Shown here piece by piece: positions 26,348-39,477 of a stretch of DNA of 39,477 nucleotides (the first letter of the stretch is position 1; each line of letters begins with the position of its first letter). The notes beneath the pieces were generated by a model that saw only the letters and a list, made by a program, of their open reading frames with translations, ran no database searches and was not told the DNA's origin. Position numbers and translations under genes: made by a program. Source of the stretch: Sphingobacteriales bacterium (GTDB taxonomy: Bacteria; Bacteroidota; Bacteroidia; Sphingobacteriales; Sphingobacteriaceae); assembly GCA_015654985.1 (NCBI GenBank), contig JAATFW010000057.1:1-39477 (forward strand). The letters run 5' to 3'.

Positions 26348-26367
26348 GTATCTAAAACAATTTTATC

Positions 26368-26406
26368 GGTCTCTCATCATCCTTTGAAGAACAGTTTTAT
26401 AGATGA
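26368..26406 (+). repeat. 39-bp intergenic element, copy 1
   Basis: A 39-base sequence beginning GGTCTC, with the core CTTTGAAGAAC and ending TTTTATAGATGA. A second copy with 33 of 39 identical bases lies at 31376-31414 in the same orientation. This copy is 21 bases past the stop of the Rrf2 gene. It is too conserved to be chance between two unrelated spacers. Function unknown. Confidence 0.6.
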
Positions 26407-26427
26407 AATTTTTAAAAAGGGACTTTC

Positions 26428-31058: not shown

Positions 31059-31535
31059 GTTTGGTAATTTCTTCTCTTTTTTTGGATTAATTTTCTGCTA
31101 TCCGGCATTCCCGGATAGCCTGTTTATCATTCGAATCTAAAAACAGACAAATATCCGCTTTTTACCTGTTGTTCCTAAAGGAAACGGAAACATAAATGCT
31201 TTTATTACTGTTCTCTAACAATACAATTGACAGAGATCAGGAAGGTCTCCTGATTATTAGTATGTAAATAACGGCCCTGCTTAAAAACATAATTGTGCGG
31301 CTAATATACAAACATTCTGTAATTAGTCTCTCACCCTCTTACATTGCCGGATAACCAGGATGAAAATGTTTTACAGGTCTCCCGTCTTTCTTTGAAGAAC
31401 GATTTTATAGATGAGAAAATAAAAATTTATTATGCAGGATAAATCCATTCTGATTACTTTCATACATTTATAATTGTACCCGGATGTATTCAACAGAACC
31501 GGCTTTACATACTGCTTAATCAATAAAAGAGGCTC
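31059..31535. promoter_or_regulatory. 477-bp divergent spacer with hairpins and a repeated element
   Basis: This region separates the DsbD operon (minus) from the 31536 cluster (plus). It holds a 9-bp perfect hairpin GCTATCCGG-cattc-CCGGATAGC (31097-31119) in the leader of the DsbD-alpha gene, a 7-bp hairpin ATCAGGA-aggtc-TCCTGAT (31236-31254), and copy 2 of the 39-bp element (31376-31414). No protein-coding stretch or RNA gene was recognised. Promoters cannot be placed with confidence. Confidence 0.5.
31376..31414 (+). repeat. 39-bp intergenic element, copy 2
   Basis: Same length and orientation as copy 1 at 26368-26406, with 33 of 39 identical bases. Differences cluster in the eight bases after GGTCTC and two bases before the TTTTATAGATGA end, while CTTTGAAGAAC is unchanged. 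It lies 121 bases before the start of the plus-strand cluster that contains a general-stress-type protein. Confidence 0.6.
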
Positions 31536-34972: not shown

Positions 34973-35602
34973 ATGCTTGAAACAATTATATCTGGTATAG
35001 GACTTGGAATAGTACTTTCTTTTGTAACGGGTCCGGTATTTTTTGCCCTGTTAAAAACCAGCATCGAAAGAGGTTTTCATGCCGGGATGTGGCTTTCGGC
35101 AGGCGTGGTAGTAAGTGATCTGATCTATGTAGGCTTAGCCCTGTATGGTTCGTCATTTATACAGTTTGAGAATCAATACCGCGTGCCAATCGGTGTTGCA
35201 GGAAGTACCATACTGGCAGGAATAGGATGCTATTACCTTTTTAAAAAAGTCAAAATTAACTATGACAACACCACATCAACCAAAAGAAATACAGGGTATT
35301 TTTTTAAGGGTTTCTTAATGTGCATTTTCAACCCGTCATTGCTGCTGTACTGGATTAGCGTTACCAGTGGTATTATCTCGGTAACAGGCGAAATCAAGGC
35401 ACGTGAGATTATTCCGTTCTTTGGGTCCATCCTTCTAACCCAATTCAGCATGGATACCTTAAAGGCCTACTACGCAAATAAACTGCGATATAAGATTAAA
35501 GAGAATACAATTACCCTGCTAAACAGAGTGGCCGGCACGCTCATCCTGATCTTTGCTCTTAAACTGATCTATAACCTGGTCTTCAATATGCCGCTGGTAT
35601 AG
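34973..35602 (+). CDS. LysE/RhtB-family amino-acid exporter
   Basis: A 209-residue membrane protein of the LysE superfamily, which exports amino acids or similar small metabolites. Seen here: MLETIISGIGLGIVLSFVTG and GPVFFALLKTSIERGFHAGM, the family's first helix pair with the GP-x-FF motif; four further hydrophobic helices including AGVVVSDLIYVGLALYG; and the FLMCIFNPSLLLYWISVTSG block, typical of the second half. The length is usual. It diverges from the sugar transporter across a 109-bp AT-rich spacer with no clear promoter box. The substrate is unknown. Confidence 0.9.
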   Translation: MLETIISGIGLGIVLSFVTGPVFFALLKTSIERGFHAGMWLSAGVVVSDLIYVGLALYGSSFIQFENQYRVPIGVAGSTILAGIGCYYLFKKVKINYDNTTSTKRNTGYFFKGFLMCIFNPSLLLYWISVTSGIISVTGEIKAREIIPFFGSILLTQFSMDTLKAYYANKLRYKIKENTITLLNRVAGTLILIFALKLIYNLVFNMPLV

Positions 35603-36140
35603 GGGTTGGGGGTTGTGAGTTGCGGGTTGTGAGTTGAAGGGGCCGGGTTGTAAGTTCTGAGGAACACCCGGGGAGAGGGGGGATGAATGTTATGGGTTAT
35701 GGGTTATAAATTATGAGTTATGGGTTTCCGGAGATTTTGCAAAAATTGACTTAAATATTCAACATATTGCGTTGCGGTACATTATGATTGCGTTGAGAAT
35801 ATGTTTTACAGCTTATTAATTATGTTGAATCTCCCGTGCGCTATGCAGTGGTTTAATTCTACCGACGCCAGAGTATTCCCGTATTTACAAATTGTAACAT
35901 ACTCATGGTTATAAGCTACACAACCACGTATTGTATATGCAGATCAGGCTTCACAAAAAAATCCATTACACTTTCAATCTTAATCTTTCAACTTTCAACC
36001 TTCAACCTTTAAACTGTACAACACATTTCCAACTCTATGATTATCAGCTATAAAAGTGTGTTGTATTTCTAAATCATTTTTTGCTAAATCGCTGGAAACC
36101 TTCAACCTTCAACCTTCAACCCTCAACCTTCAACCCACAT
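35603..36140. repeat. 538-bp non-coding spacer filled with repeats
   Basis: No gene is visible. Contents: a tandem 14-mer GGGTTGTGAGTTG(C/A) (35610-35623, 35624-35637); three TTATGGG units at 35690-35724; a nested inverted-repeat region (35757-35830) with two ATTGCGTTG copies (35766-35774, 35787-35795); TTCAACC-type runs at 35970-36007; the word AAACTGTACAACAC (36011-36024) with a 9-bp inverted repeat TACAACACA/TGTGTTGTA (36017-36025, 36057-36065); and TAAATCGCTGGAAACC (36085-36100) followed by more TTCAACC runs to 36136. The part from 36011 to about 36109 recurs at 38356-38490 on the other side of purF. Confidence 0.8.
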
Positions 36141-38042
36141 CTAGACGTACGCTCTCTGATTCTTCCCTTCCACCCAGTTCATAAAGGCGCGGTTAACTAC
36201 TTTATTACCGCCGGGGGTAGGGTAGTTTCCTGAGAAGTACCAGTCGCCCAGGTGGGCAGGGCACGCTATATGCAAATTATCGAGGGTCTGATAGATCACT
36301 TTTACCTCTGCATGAATTCCTTTGGGCGAAATGATCTGAGCAATTTTATCAGAGATTTCATCATCACTAAAGGGTTCGTAGATTGCTTTAATATAATTTT
36401 CAGCTTTCTCGTTGTCTAACTCTATGGAAGCTTTACATTTTTCATAGGTTTCCCATATGATATGTTCCCGGTCGCTTTCTTTTAATAAGGATATTGCAGC
36501 CTCAAAAGCAACAAACTCACCCATTCTCGACATATCAATGCCGTAACAATCCGGATAACGGATCTGAGGAGCAGAAGAAACAATGATGATTTTCCGGGGA
36601 TTCAGCCTGTCGAGGATCTTCAGGATACTCTGTCTTAAAGTAGTCCCCCTCACGATCGAATCATCTATTACTACCAGATTATCCTCGCCTGCTTTTACCA
36701 GGCCGTAGGTAGTATCATAAATATGCGACACCATATCCTGACGATCTGCATCCTGGGTAATAAAAGTACGGAGTTTTACATCTTTGATCGCTATTTTCTC
36801 TACTCTTGGAGCAAGACTAAGCATTTCATCGAGTTCAGCGTCAGAAATCTTATCATCCCGGTTCAGCAGGGTATCCTTCTGAAGCTGCTTAATATATTTA
36901 TGAAGACCCTCCACCATTCCATAAAAAGCCACTTCAGCAGTATTTGGAATGAAGGAAAATACGGTATTCTTAAAATCATAGCCAACTGTCTCGAGAATCT
37001 GGGGGCATAATAAACGGCCCAGATGTTTCCTTTCCCGGTAAATGGCAGCATCACTGCCCCGTGAAAAATAGATCCGTTCAAAAGAGCATGACTTCTGCTC
37101 TTCCGGCTCACGGAACTGCTCTTCAGAGATAGTGCCATTCTTCTTAATGATCAGTGCATAACCAGGCCTGATCTCTTTTACTGAACTAAACGGCACATTA
37201 AAAGCGGTCTGTATAGCCGGCCGTTCGGAAGTTACAACAGCGATCTCATCATCATAATAGTAATAAGCAGGCCTGATACCTGAAGGGTCGCGCATCACAA
37301 AAGCATCGCCATGTCCGAAAATCCCTTCTATCGTATACCCGCCGTCCCAGGTCTTTGCAGAGCGGCGAAGTATTTTGGCAACATCAATATTATCGGAAAT
37401 TAAACGGCTGATCTCGGCATTTCCAAATCCCTCGGCTTTAAAATTGTCGAAAAGGTTCTGATTTTCTGCATCCAGGAAATGTCCTATCTTCTCAAGCACG
37501 GTTACAGTATCTGCCTTTTCCTTAGGATGCTGCCCTAATTCAAATAACTGCTGAAGCAGTTCGTCAACATTGGTCATATTGAAGTTCCCGGCAATAACAA
37601 GATTTCTGCTCATCCAGTTATTCTGCCTCAGGAAAGGATGACAGTTTTCAATACTGTTTTTTCCGTGTGTACCATACCGCAGATGACCCATGAGTACCTC
37701 CCCGGTAAAGCTTATATTCTCTTTAAGCCACTCCGTATCTTCAAACAATTCCGGATTATCCTGTACACCGGCAAACTTTCTCTGTACATATTCAAAGATC
37801 TCGGAAACAGCATTAGAACCCATGGCACGATACCGGCTGATATATCTGTTGCCAGGACTAACATCCAATTTAATTGTTGCTATACCTGCACCATCCTGAC
37901 CACGGTTATGTTGTTTTTCCATCAACAGGTACAATTTGTTTAAGCCGTAAAGGGCCGTACCATATTTTTGCTGATAAAAAGAGAGGGGTTTTAAAAGACG
38001 AATGAGAGCGATGCCGCACTCATGTTTTATTGATTCACTCAT
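36141..38042 (-). CDS. purF: Amidophosphoribosyltransferase (PurF), long form
   Basis: A 633-residue enzyme for the first step of purine synthesis: glutamine plus PRPP to phosphoribosylamine. The glutaminase (Ntn hydrolase) domain begins after an eight-residue propeptide at the catalytic Cys9 (HECGIALIRL), with EKQHNRGQDGAGIATIKL and [19 protein letters not shown] as further signature pieces. The phosphoribosyltransferase domain has the PRPP loop NLVVIDDSIVRGTTLRQSI (about 455-475). At 633 residues it is roughly 130 longer than E. coli PurF; such a long form is frequent in Bacteroidota, sometimes beside a standard-length paralogue, so a second copy elsewhere is possible. A TAATTTTG promoter box lies 18-25 bases before the ATG. 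Non-coding repeat-rich spacers flank it on both sides. Confidence 0.93.
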   Translation of the reverse strand: MSESIKHECGIALIRLLKPLSFYQQKYGTALYGLNKLYLLMEKQHNRGQDGAGIATIKLDVSPGNRYISRYRAMGSNAVSEIFEYVQRKFAGVQDNPELFEDTEWLKENISFTGEVLMGHLRYGTHGKNSIENCHPFLRQNNWMSRNLVIAGNFNMTNVDELLQQLFELGQHPKEKADTVTVLEKIGHFLDAENQNLFDNFKAEGFGNAEISRLISDNIDVAKILRRSAKTWDGGYTIEGIFGHGDAFVMRDPSGIRPAYYYYDDEIAVVTSERPAIQTAFNVPFSSVKEIRPGYALIIKKNGTISEEQFREPEEQKSCSFERIYFSRGSDAAIYRERKHLGRLLCPQILETVGYDFKNTVFSFIPNTAEVAFYGMVEGLHKYIKQLQKDTLLNRDDKISDAELDEMLSLAPRVEKIAIKDVKLRTFITQDADRQDMVSHIYDTTYGLVKAGEDNLVVIDDSIVRGTTLRQSILKILDRLNPRKIIIVSSAPQIRYPDCYGIDMSRMGEFVAFEAAISLLKESDREHIIWETYEKCKASIELDNEKAENYIKAIYEPFSDDEISDKIAQIISPKGIHAEVKVIYQTLDNLHIACPAHLGDWYFSGNYPTPGGNKVVNRAFMNWVEGKNQRAYV

Positions 38043-38547
38043 GGATTATCACTGAGCAGCAAAATTAGGGTTTTTAGTCGATAGTTGAAAATGTCAAATT
38101 CGTAAATCGTACCCGGATCAGAAACCGGAGACCGGAAATCAGAGAAACCGGAAATCAGTGAAGCACGAAAATCAGTGAAGCACGAAAATTGGTGATCCTG
38201 GTGCGAAATCGAAAAACACCGTCCAACGTGCAGAAAATCCTCTTTATTATTATTATGCTGAATTTTATCCGTCAGCCTTTGTAAGACTTGTCTGTTGCCG
38301 CCTGCTGTCTGTCCCCCACCCTGCATCCAGGTATTCCCTGTCACTTTCACCCTACAAACTGTACAACACTAAGTTAAAGATCATGAGGAAACAGTACAAC
38401 TCATCCCTAACCCCATTTACTTTGACCCGCAACACAAGATGTTATATATTTAAATCAATTCCTGTTAAATCGCTGGAAACCTTCAACCTTTCACCTTTCT
38501 CCTTTCACCTTTAAGCTTTAAGCTTTTACCTTTAAGCCCCCGCAGCC
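38043..38547. repeat. 505-bp non-coding spacer with tandem and dispersed repeats
   Basis: No convincing gene; a 103-codon minus-strand frame here overlaps the tandem repeats and has no family features. Contents: a TAnnTTTG promoter box (38060-38067, minus) for purF; near-identical 16-mers ACCGGAAATCAG(A/T)GAA at 38131-38146 and 38147-38162; tandem identical 17-mers AAATCAGTGAAGCACGA at 38152-38168 and 38169-38185; and the composite element shared with the other side of purF: AAACTGTACAACAC (38356-38369) and TAAATCGCTGGAAACCTTCA, positions 38466-38490. The tail to 38536 is CTTTCACC/CTTTAAGC-type pyrimidine-rich repeats. Confidence 0.8.
38060..38067 (-). promoter_or_regulatory. Putative -7 promoter box of purF
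   Basis: TAATTTTG on the minus strand fits TAnnTTTG and lies 18-25 bases before the start codon of purF, giving a leader of about 10 bases. The nearest TTTG further upstream (38095-38098) is too far for a standard -33 box. Confidence 0.45.
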
Positions 38548-39477
38548 CTAAACCAGCAAGCCCGGAAATATCCCCCATAACAATAGCAGAAATGTTAATA
38601 CAATAATTATATACAATAAAACATTCTGTTTCTTATCTATCACAGGCTCTGTTTCAGACTGCCTGAGGAAGGCATTTAAAGGTATTTTAAAATAATAGAA
38701 TAACGAGACCACTGTAGTTACTGCTCCCGTTATAAGCATGGCAGGCAACCAGCCTGAATGGCTTGTGGAATAACCTTCAAAAACTGCCGAAAATACAAGA
38801 AATTTACCTATAAACCCGGCAAGAGGCGGGAGTCCTGTAAGCGACATCAGCACAATAACAAAACACACCATTTCTACCTTAAGGAACTTGCCAAGTCCCC
38901 TGTATTCTTTAACGGTAACGGCTCCGGTCAGATCCTCAATCCTTCCGGCAAGCATGAAAGCCGCCATATTCATCACAGCATAAATTAAAAGATAAAAAAG
39001 CATTGCCTTAATTCCATTACCGGAATTGGCAATTACGGCCATCATAATAAAACCAGTATGGCCAATAGAAGAATAAGCAAGCATCCTTTTAATATTATTC
39101 TGCCAGACAGCAATAAAATTGCCGGCGATCATAGAAAGAATAGCAACAGCCGACAAAACACTTACAAAATCAAAAACATGCTGCGGCTGAACTTCAGTCT
39201 TATATGACGTAAATGCCCACAGAAAGCGTATCAGAATTGCAAAACCCGCTATTTTAGGTCCTGTAGACAAAAATGCCGTAACCGGGACCGGGGCCCCTTC
39301 ATATACATCAGGGCTCCAGAAATGCAGGGGGACAAATGAAAGTTTGAACCCGATACCAACCAATACCAGTACAATAGCAATTCCGCTGACAGTTGCAGGC
39401 ATCTGTCCTAACCGCACCAGGAATTCAGCGTCATAAAGATTAAGTGTACCTGTAAAAGCATACAATAACGACATTCC
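38548..39477 (-). CDS. nuoN: NADH-quinone oxidoreductase subunit N (NuoN), partial, N-terminus outside window
   Basis: The C-terminal 309 or so codons of the NuoN antiporter-like membrane subunit of respiratory complex I, which helps couple quinone reduction to proton pumping. The frame is open to the right window edge; the Met at 39474 is internal. Recognisable blocks: SLLYAFTGTLNLYDAEF, LVGIGFKLSFVPLHFWSPDV and YEGAPVPVTAFLSTGPKIAG (with the conserved Lys and Glu region), NNIKRMLAYSSIGHTGFIMM, and MSLTGLPPLAGFIGKFLVFS, all in the order of the family, with membrane helices throughout. NuoN is normally the last gene of the nuo operon, so the rest of the operon should lie to the right on the minus strand. 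It ends at 38548 before the repeat-rich spacer. Confidence 0.95.
   Translation of the reverse strand, partial: GMSLLYAFTGTLNLYDAEFLVRLGQMPATVSGIAIVLVLVGIGFKLSFVPLHFWSPDVYEGAPVPVTAFLSTGPKIAGFAILIRFLWAFTSYKTEVQPQHVFDFVSVLSAVAILSMIAGNFIAVWQNNIKRMLAYSSIGHTGFIMMAVIANSGNGIKAMLFYLLIYAVMNMAAFMLAGRIEDLTGAVTVKEYRGLGKFLKVEMVCFVIVLMSLTGLPPLAGFIGKFLVFSAVFEGYSTSHSGWLPAMLITGAVTTVVSLFYYFKIPLNAFLRQSETEPVIDKKQNVLLYIIIVLTFLLLLWGIFPGLLV

Follow-up and report, generated by a model that had tools for sequence, protein, structure and literature searches.

The repeat that lies on both sides of a purF-like gene in this Sphingobacteriales genome is, with a probability of roughly 70%, a non-coding, non-autonomous and target-specific mobile element, MITE-like but devoid of terminal inverted repeats. 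Its ends are fixed, its copies are of many ages, exact empty and filled sites can be compared, and it has two distant carriers among the genomes searched. The first-pass annotation had offered three explanations: a dispersed intergenic repeat family, a small non-autonomous mobile element, or the scars of a duplication that carried purF. The first two are supported by 68 copies in the genome, by exact empty and filled sites in Chryseotalea sanaruensis and by orthologous sites of a congener that hold the target array alone; the third found no support. As far as the searches go, the family is new: no description of it was recognised in the literature searched, which was judged mostly from the opening lines of abstracts.

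The copies around purF

The window, i.e. the whole stretch of DNA that was analysed, comprises 39,477 nucleotides. Its relevant features are the following:

34973..35602, + strand, gene of a LysE-family translocator (PF01810, E 1.6e-23); arrays and copy 3 follow its stop
35605..35723, - strand, region with heptamer arrays, from the LysE-type gene stop to copy 3
35724..35814, - strand, element copy 3, diverged (covariance model R1, E 2.6e-7; 71% to consensus)
35986..36006, + strand, heptamer array of 3 units, left of copy 1
36011..36099, + strand, element copy 1 (covariance model R1, E 4.2e-16; alignment A1)
36017..36025, + strand, 5' arm of the copy 1 stem, TACAACACA (sequence)
36057..36065, + strand, 3' arm of the copy 1 stem, TGTGTTGTA (sequence)
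36100..36134, + strand, heptamer array of 5 units YYNNAAC, from copy 1 to the purF stop
36141..38042, - strand, purF-like amidophosphoribosyltransferase gene, 633 aa (NCBIfam TIGR01134, relatives)
38356..38388, + strand, extra 5' end AAACTGTACAACAC, immediately ahead of copy 2 (sequence)
38389..38480, + strand, element copy 2, decayed, of a diverged subfamily (R1, E 6.3e-6; 73% to consensus)
38478..38535, + strand, degenerate heptamer array, from copy 2 to the nuoN stop (TRF)
38548..39474, - strand, NuoN-like gene, running to the contig end (TIGR01770, Pfam PF00361)

Two words had been reported to recur in the same orientation around purF, and they do so exactly: AAACTGTACAACAC at 36011-36024 and 38356-38369, TAAATCGCTGGAAACCTTCA at 36085-36104 and 38466-38485. 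With up to two mismatches the former has 4 matches (shuffle mean 0.21; 4 reached in 0 of 100 shuffles); the latter matches twice, and in none of 100 shuffles. The 9-bp inverted repeat of copy 1 (the two arms listed above) and the related AAATCA ahead of the second block were also described correctly. The "composite repeat", however, is a single element of about 89 bp, of which the two blocks are the two ends. A second copy is indeed there, yet the covariance model places it at 38389-38480, and the 14-mer at 38356 is additional. As this exact 14-mer represents an extra 5' end, the long "variable stretch" behind it is probably a partial, truncated tandem copy; tandem copies one to two units apart also occur elsewhere in the genome, e.g., on contigs C343, C249, C115 and C339. 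A third copy, on the minus strand at 35724-35814, had been overlooked.

Copy 1 is well preserved (91% to the family consensus) and lies 41 nt beyond the purF stop. Its ends are ambiguous within A-runs, the minimal extent being 36014-36095 and the maximal one 36011-36098. Copy 2 lies 67 nt beyond the nuoN stop; the loop of its subfamily, ...CTTTGACCCGCAACA..., is common to copies on contigs C263 and C295. The CTTCAAC-type runs that flank the copies in the window are heptamer arrays.

The purF product has TIGR01134 as its best NCBIfam match (E 4.8e-38), with 131.6 bits being below the cut-off of 350; a relative at 55-92% identity is present in each of 28 genomes, split into two pieces in one. 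The partial NuoN-like protein scores 247.3 bits with TIGR01770 (E 3.1e-73), again below the cut-off (332.6), and exceeds the cut-off of PF00361. Just upstream of the purF start, at 38131-38189, a unit of 16-17 nt (AAATCAGTGAAGCACGA) is repeated in tandem about three times. The window also contains another dispersed repeat, TTTATCGGTCTCTCATC..CTTTGAAGAACAGTTTTATAGATGAAA, at 26361-26417 and 31369-31425; it occurs at 10 places in 496 kb of the same genome (reversed control 0) and at none of 14 loci of the congener G002.

A dispersed family with fixed ends

The draft assembly totals 4.73 Mb in 355 contigs and is 88% complete. The exact 14-mer is present in 18 copies genome-wide, a 15-mer from the 3' end in 20, and the reversed controls in none. 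From 26 complete copies an alignment with a consensus of 89 positions was obtained (mean column identity 86%), and the covariance model built from it finds 68 copies, all at E 6e-4 or better; the window holds three of the 68. Further, more decayed copies exist beyond these. The figure of 68 is probably a lower bound because of the incomplete draft and because 8 of the 68 are found no more than 150 nt from the end of a contig; the element may thus account for some of the contig breaks in this assembly.

The element measures about 86-89 bp and is non-coding. Its ends are fixed, ACTGTACAACA at the 5' side and AAATCAATTTTT-n-AAATCGCTGGAAA at the 3' side, while the middle varies. Identity to the consensus ranges from 54 to 98% over the 68 copies, and this wide spread implies copies of many ages. 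Terminal inverted repeats of 15-30 bp are absent from the alignments, the ends AAACTGTAC.../...CGCTGGAAAC not being complementary. The attC sites of integrons have complementary outer boxes, RYYYAAC and GTTRRRY; in view of the non-complementary ends in the alignment, this identity was dropped.

Probable insertion into heptamer arrays

Nearly all copies adjoin an array of heptamers of the type YYNNAAC (CTTCAAC, TTTCAAC, CCGCAAC, CCATAAC and others); two copies, C339:7862 and C92:7325, have none beside them. The junction reads TTTCAA(ACTG...GGAAA)CTTTCAAC, the parentheses enclosing the element, and the right array follows the terminal GGAAAC in phase. The flank analysis covered the 62 copies that have 60 nt to either side; the other 6 of the 68 have too little flank. 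Immediately to the left of the element, YY keeps the heptamer phase in 53 of the 62. The partial unit on the left agrees with a unit type of the right array at the same locus in 31 of the 41 copies that allowed the comparison, against 22.3 in shuffles (p 2.5e-4); an existing array split by the element would give this pattern. The arrays are one-sided, with a mean of 4.3 units on the right versus 0.8 on the left (p 8e-8), a strong asymmetry that random insertion into arrays does not predict and that counts against a mobile element. Among flanks with an open reading frame, 44 of 61 on the array side meet a gene stop, compared with 28 of 60 on the other side; these counts come from simple ORF calling on the 68 copies, the remaining flanks having no ORF in reach.

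Arrays also exist without the element. In a sample of 20 contigs of the same genome, chosen by number (about 200 kb), there are 8 arrays of at least 3 perfect units, none with an element beside it. The congener G002 has many arrays and zero elements; no shared motif beside them was seen by eye at 13 loci. One of its arrays (L149, 1548-1750) consists of 29 heptamers in perfect phase, mostly CTTCAAC. After its purF there are a few heptamer units and no element. At the G002 loci orthologous to the element loci C74 and C263:7102 the array stands alone, a comparison that is biased, since both loci, though picked without knowledge of the genes, were selected for having arrays. The locus matching C25 carries a terminator-like hairpin in G002 and no array, so not every array is demonstrably older; this one is either new in the genome under study or lost in G002. 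Apart from this exception, the array predates the element wherever the order could be checked.

The same ends in REP loops

The sole other carrier found, Chryseotalea sanaruensis, belongs to another family. Its genome contains the 14-mer of the 3' end, with at most one mismatch, at nine places: seven hold the whole element (80-112 bp), one has an element truncated at its 5' side, and one (L134) is a chance match. The ends of the elements are those described above, and the middle is different and variable in length. Here no heptamers are involved. The host site is the loop of a palindrome, GTTCGACATGCGCTGCGCTAACATGTCGAAC, and the target reads GCGCTAA^CATGTCGAAC. At L114 an empty site, GTTCGAGATGCGCTGCGCTAA|CATCTCGAAC, lies 2 kb from a filled one, GTTCGAGATGCGCTGCGCTAA(ACTGTACAATAG...CGCTGGAAA)CATCTCGAAC. 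The element-free palindrome is common, with 11 empty versus 3 filled sites in 400 kb (read from a list). The filled and empty sites define the junction as AA^C, with a duplication of none or one to three A; the check for target-site duplications suggested earlier thus leaves room for 0 to 3 nt, all of them A.

The palindrome is read as a REP, because empty copies flank, in opposite orientation, a gene for a REP-associated tyrosine transposase that matches the model REP_Tyr_transpos NF047646 with 123.7 bits against a cut-off of 80. This place (L224, 4500-7650; contig 8 of Chryseotalea, 64.5-67.6 kb) has the typical layout of a REP-RAYT unit, here in a genome of the Cytophagales. Most of the element-bearing REPs (L128-L136) are preceded by a variable palindrome, e.g., CCGGATTTAAATCCGG or GGGATTAAAAATCCC, whose arms change in step.

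A single target rule, AA^C within a repeat, fits both hosts. By this rule the element would enter its target in one orientation, between AA and C. In the genome under study, the target would be a unit YYNNAA^C of a pre-existing intergenic heptamer array, mostly the first unit when one counts towards the gene stop; in Chryseotalea, the loop of a RAYT-associated REP palindrome would play this part.

Distribution among bacteria

Outside these two genomes the searches came out negative. Model searches found the element in 0 of 40 relatives, five of which are of the same genus, so the proposed look for copies in relatives had no success. It was found in 0 of 394 other members of the class, few candidates being scored. 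The 3'-end 14-mer has 31 matches in its own genome and not more than 2 in any of 399 others of the order, nor in any of 389 others of Chryseotalea's order. The wide scan covered one genome per species in 84,980 species with the exact 3'-end pattern and hit Chryseotalea alone; the genome under study may be excluded from that collection. The repeat is accordingly not a pair of copies conserved nowhere: there are 68 copies, and conservation extends to one other, distant genome only. The PurF of Chryseotalea is 61% identical to the one in the window, other families of the class range from 55 to 66%, and five congeners from 84 to 92%; the common ends are thus not explained by close kinship.

Carriage by phages or plasmids was considered and dropped. 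Plasmids gave no match, viral contigs none, and phages nothing credible, the two matches covering 26-30% of the query at E 0.2 and 0.8.

Alternative explanations

A duplication or mobilisation of purF that left the two copies behind as scars was suggested by their common orientation on either side of one gene. It is hardly credible. Copies 1, 2 and 3 share pairwise identities of 66-70%, copies 1 and 2 only 66%, whereas closer matches exist on other contigs, for copy 1 on C343 (96.6%) and for copy 2 on C263 and C295 (79%). The copies beside purF are therefore not each other's duplicates, and 65 more lie outside the window. Also, the order purF-nuoN is kept without the element in the congeners G002 and G004. 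The two copies are ordinary members of the family, placed where target arrays by chance lie behind the purF and nuoN stops; they say nothing particular about purF, and they warn against reading it as duplicated. Alternatively, array and element could form one composite repeat that spreads from one heptamer array to another through recombination or gene conversion, without any transposition of the element. The contact of nearly all copies with an array, the tandem copies one to two units apart and the one-sidedness of the arrays are in line with this idea. In Chryseotalea, however, these ends occur in REP loops that have exact empty counterparts, and heptamers are missing; congener arrays are devoid of the element at orthologous places, and two copies stand without an adjoining array. 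A composite repeat is therefore rather unlikely.

An element of structured RNA at the 3' end of transcripts, i.e. a terminator or a stabiliser of mRNA 3' ends selected near stop codons, is quite improbable. The array side does tend to face gene stops, and at the purF and C25 loci a relative has a terminator-like hairpin where the genome under study has array plus element. The stop bias, however, may belong to the arrays, and the congeners lack the element. There is a short stem (ACAACA.../...TGTTGT) near the 5' end, and the region 36005-36106 folds with z -2.17 on the plus strand and -1.14 on the minus strand. Within the genome, though, RNAalifold yields no consensus structure, pair counts reveal no covariation of the stem, Rfam has no match to the element, and the terminator scan detects no terminator-like site at it. 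Of the conserved secondary structure that was to be checked, only this stem is left, with compensatory changes between the two species: the arms differ yet pair, ACAACAGC/GCTGTTGT versus ACAACACATT/AATGTGTTGT. When the two species are aligned jointly, both partners of two pairs differ (13 cells versus 6.2 in shuffles, 0 of 500), which is modest support, since two clades amount in effect to one or two events. Given the stop bias and the terminator hairpins of relatives at two loci, the mobile element might have acquired a role at transcript ends after insertion.

Candidate mobilising enzymes

A non-coding mobile element would have to be moved in trans by a separate enzyme. The best fit would be an enzyme that makes no long target duplication on insertion, namely a recombinase of the IS110/IS1111 type or a transposase of the IS200/IS605 type (Y1). 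An IS91-type enzyme was weighed against the junctions and dropped. The Y1 transposase domain PF01797 has 4 matches in Chryseotalea, one of them scoring as REP_Tyr_transpos NF047646, and 0 in the five congeners and in the genome under study, which is 88% complete; a Y1/RAYT enzyme was set aside as the mobiliser there, with about 12% of the genome estimated missing. An autonomous long form with these ends was sought via orphan 3' ends. In the same 88% the 3'-end matches examined, which include part of the places not known before, proved to be short or decayed copies; in Chryseotalea all nine 3'-end matches are short or decayed copies, apart from the chance match, and none is a parent.

With its guide RNA, an IS110/IS1111-type enzyme could direct a single set of ends to different targets in different hosts. 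One may go further and imagine a minimal substrate of a guide-RNA-directed or single-strand-directed recombinase, whose ends, aimed at REP loops in one lineage, were redirected to heptamer arrays in another, which spread between distant Bacteroidota, and whose enzyme acted in trans and was later lost. This scenario is speculative and on balance unlikely.

Relation to known systems

What emerges is an orphan mobile element that has the same ends in two bacterial families and different repeat targets, with empty and filled sites that define its junction. It is a natural case for studying how enzymes choose repeats as safe harbours.

Bacterial MITEs are described as 70-300 bp long, devoid of coding capacity, dispersed beside genes and presumably moved in trans (PMC3733652). 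The element resembles them in being short, non-coding and dispersed in 68 copies. It differs from the MITEs of that account by lacking terminal inverted repeats of 15-30 bp, a clear target duplication and a detected parent transposase (PMC3733652).

Several families of insertion sequences target REPs, most often IS110 (PMC1525189). The IS110/IS1111 enzymes use a guide RNA, and the IS1111 type inserts without extra bases (PMC11187229). Like IS621, ISPpu9 and ISPa11, the element occupies a fixed place in REP palindromes or repeats in a fixed orientation (PMC1525189, PMC11187229). A specific target and a fixed orientation are seen at AA^C, and the junctions agree with insertion without extra bases, which is compatible with this group, not diagnostic of it. 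In contrast to its members as portrayed there, the element has only about 89 bp, is non-coding, has neither guide-RNA region nor transposase, and also targets a heptamer array (PMC1525189, PMC11187229).

With the REP/RAYT systems (PMC2817692) it shares the character of a small, dispersed, intergenic palindromic element, and in Chryseotalea it resides in RAYT-associated REPs. It is, however, an insert in a REP, not a REP itself, and its own genome yielded no RAYT-type Y1 gene. REPs are defined as palindromes of 20-40 bp with a GTAG or CGTC tag, the tag according to PMC3733652; the element is much longer, has its stem inside, and carries no such tag beside the stem (PMC3733652).

The heptamer arrays, finally, recall the arrays of TAACTGA and other heptamers in MacGregor 2015 (PMC4679880), which likewise are intergenic direct repeats of 7 nt in Bacteroidetes. 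In contrast to the latter, they are built from the unit YYNNAAC, follow stops instead of lying mostly before starts, and harbour an embedded element.
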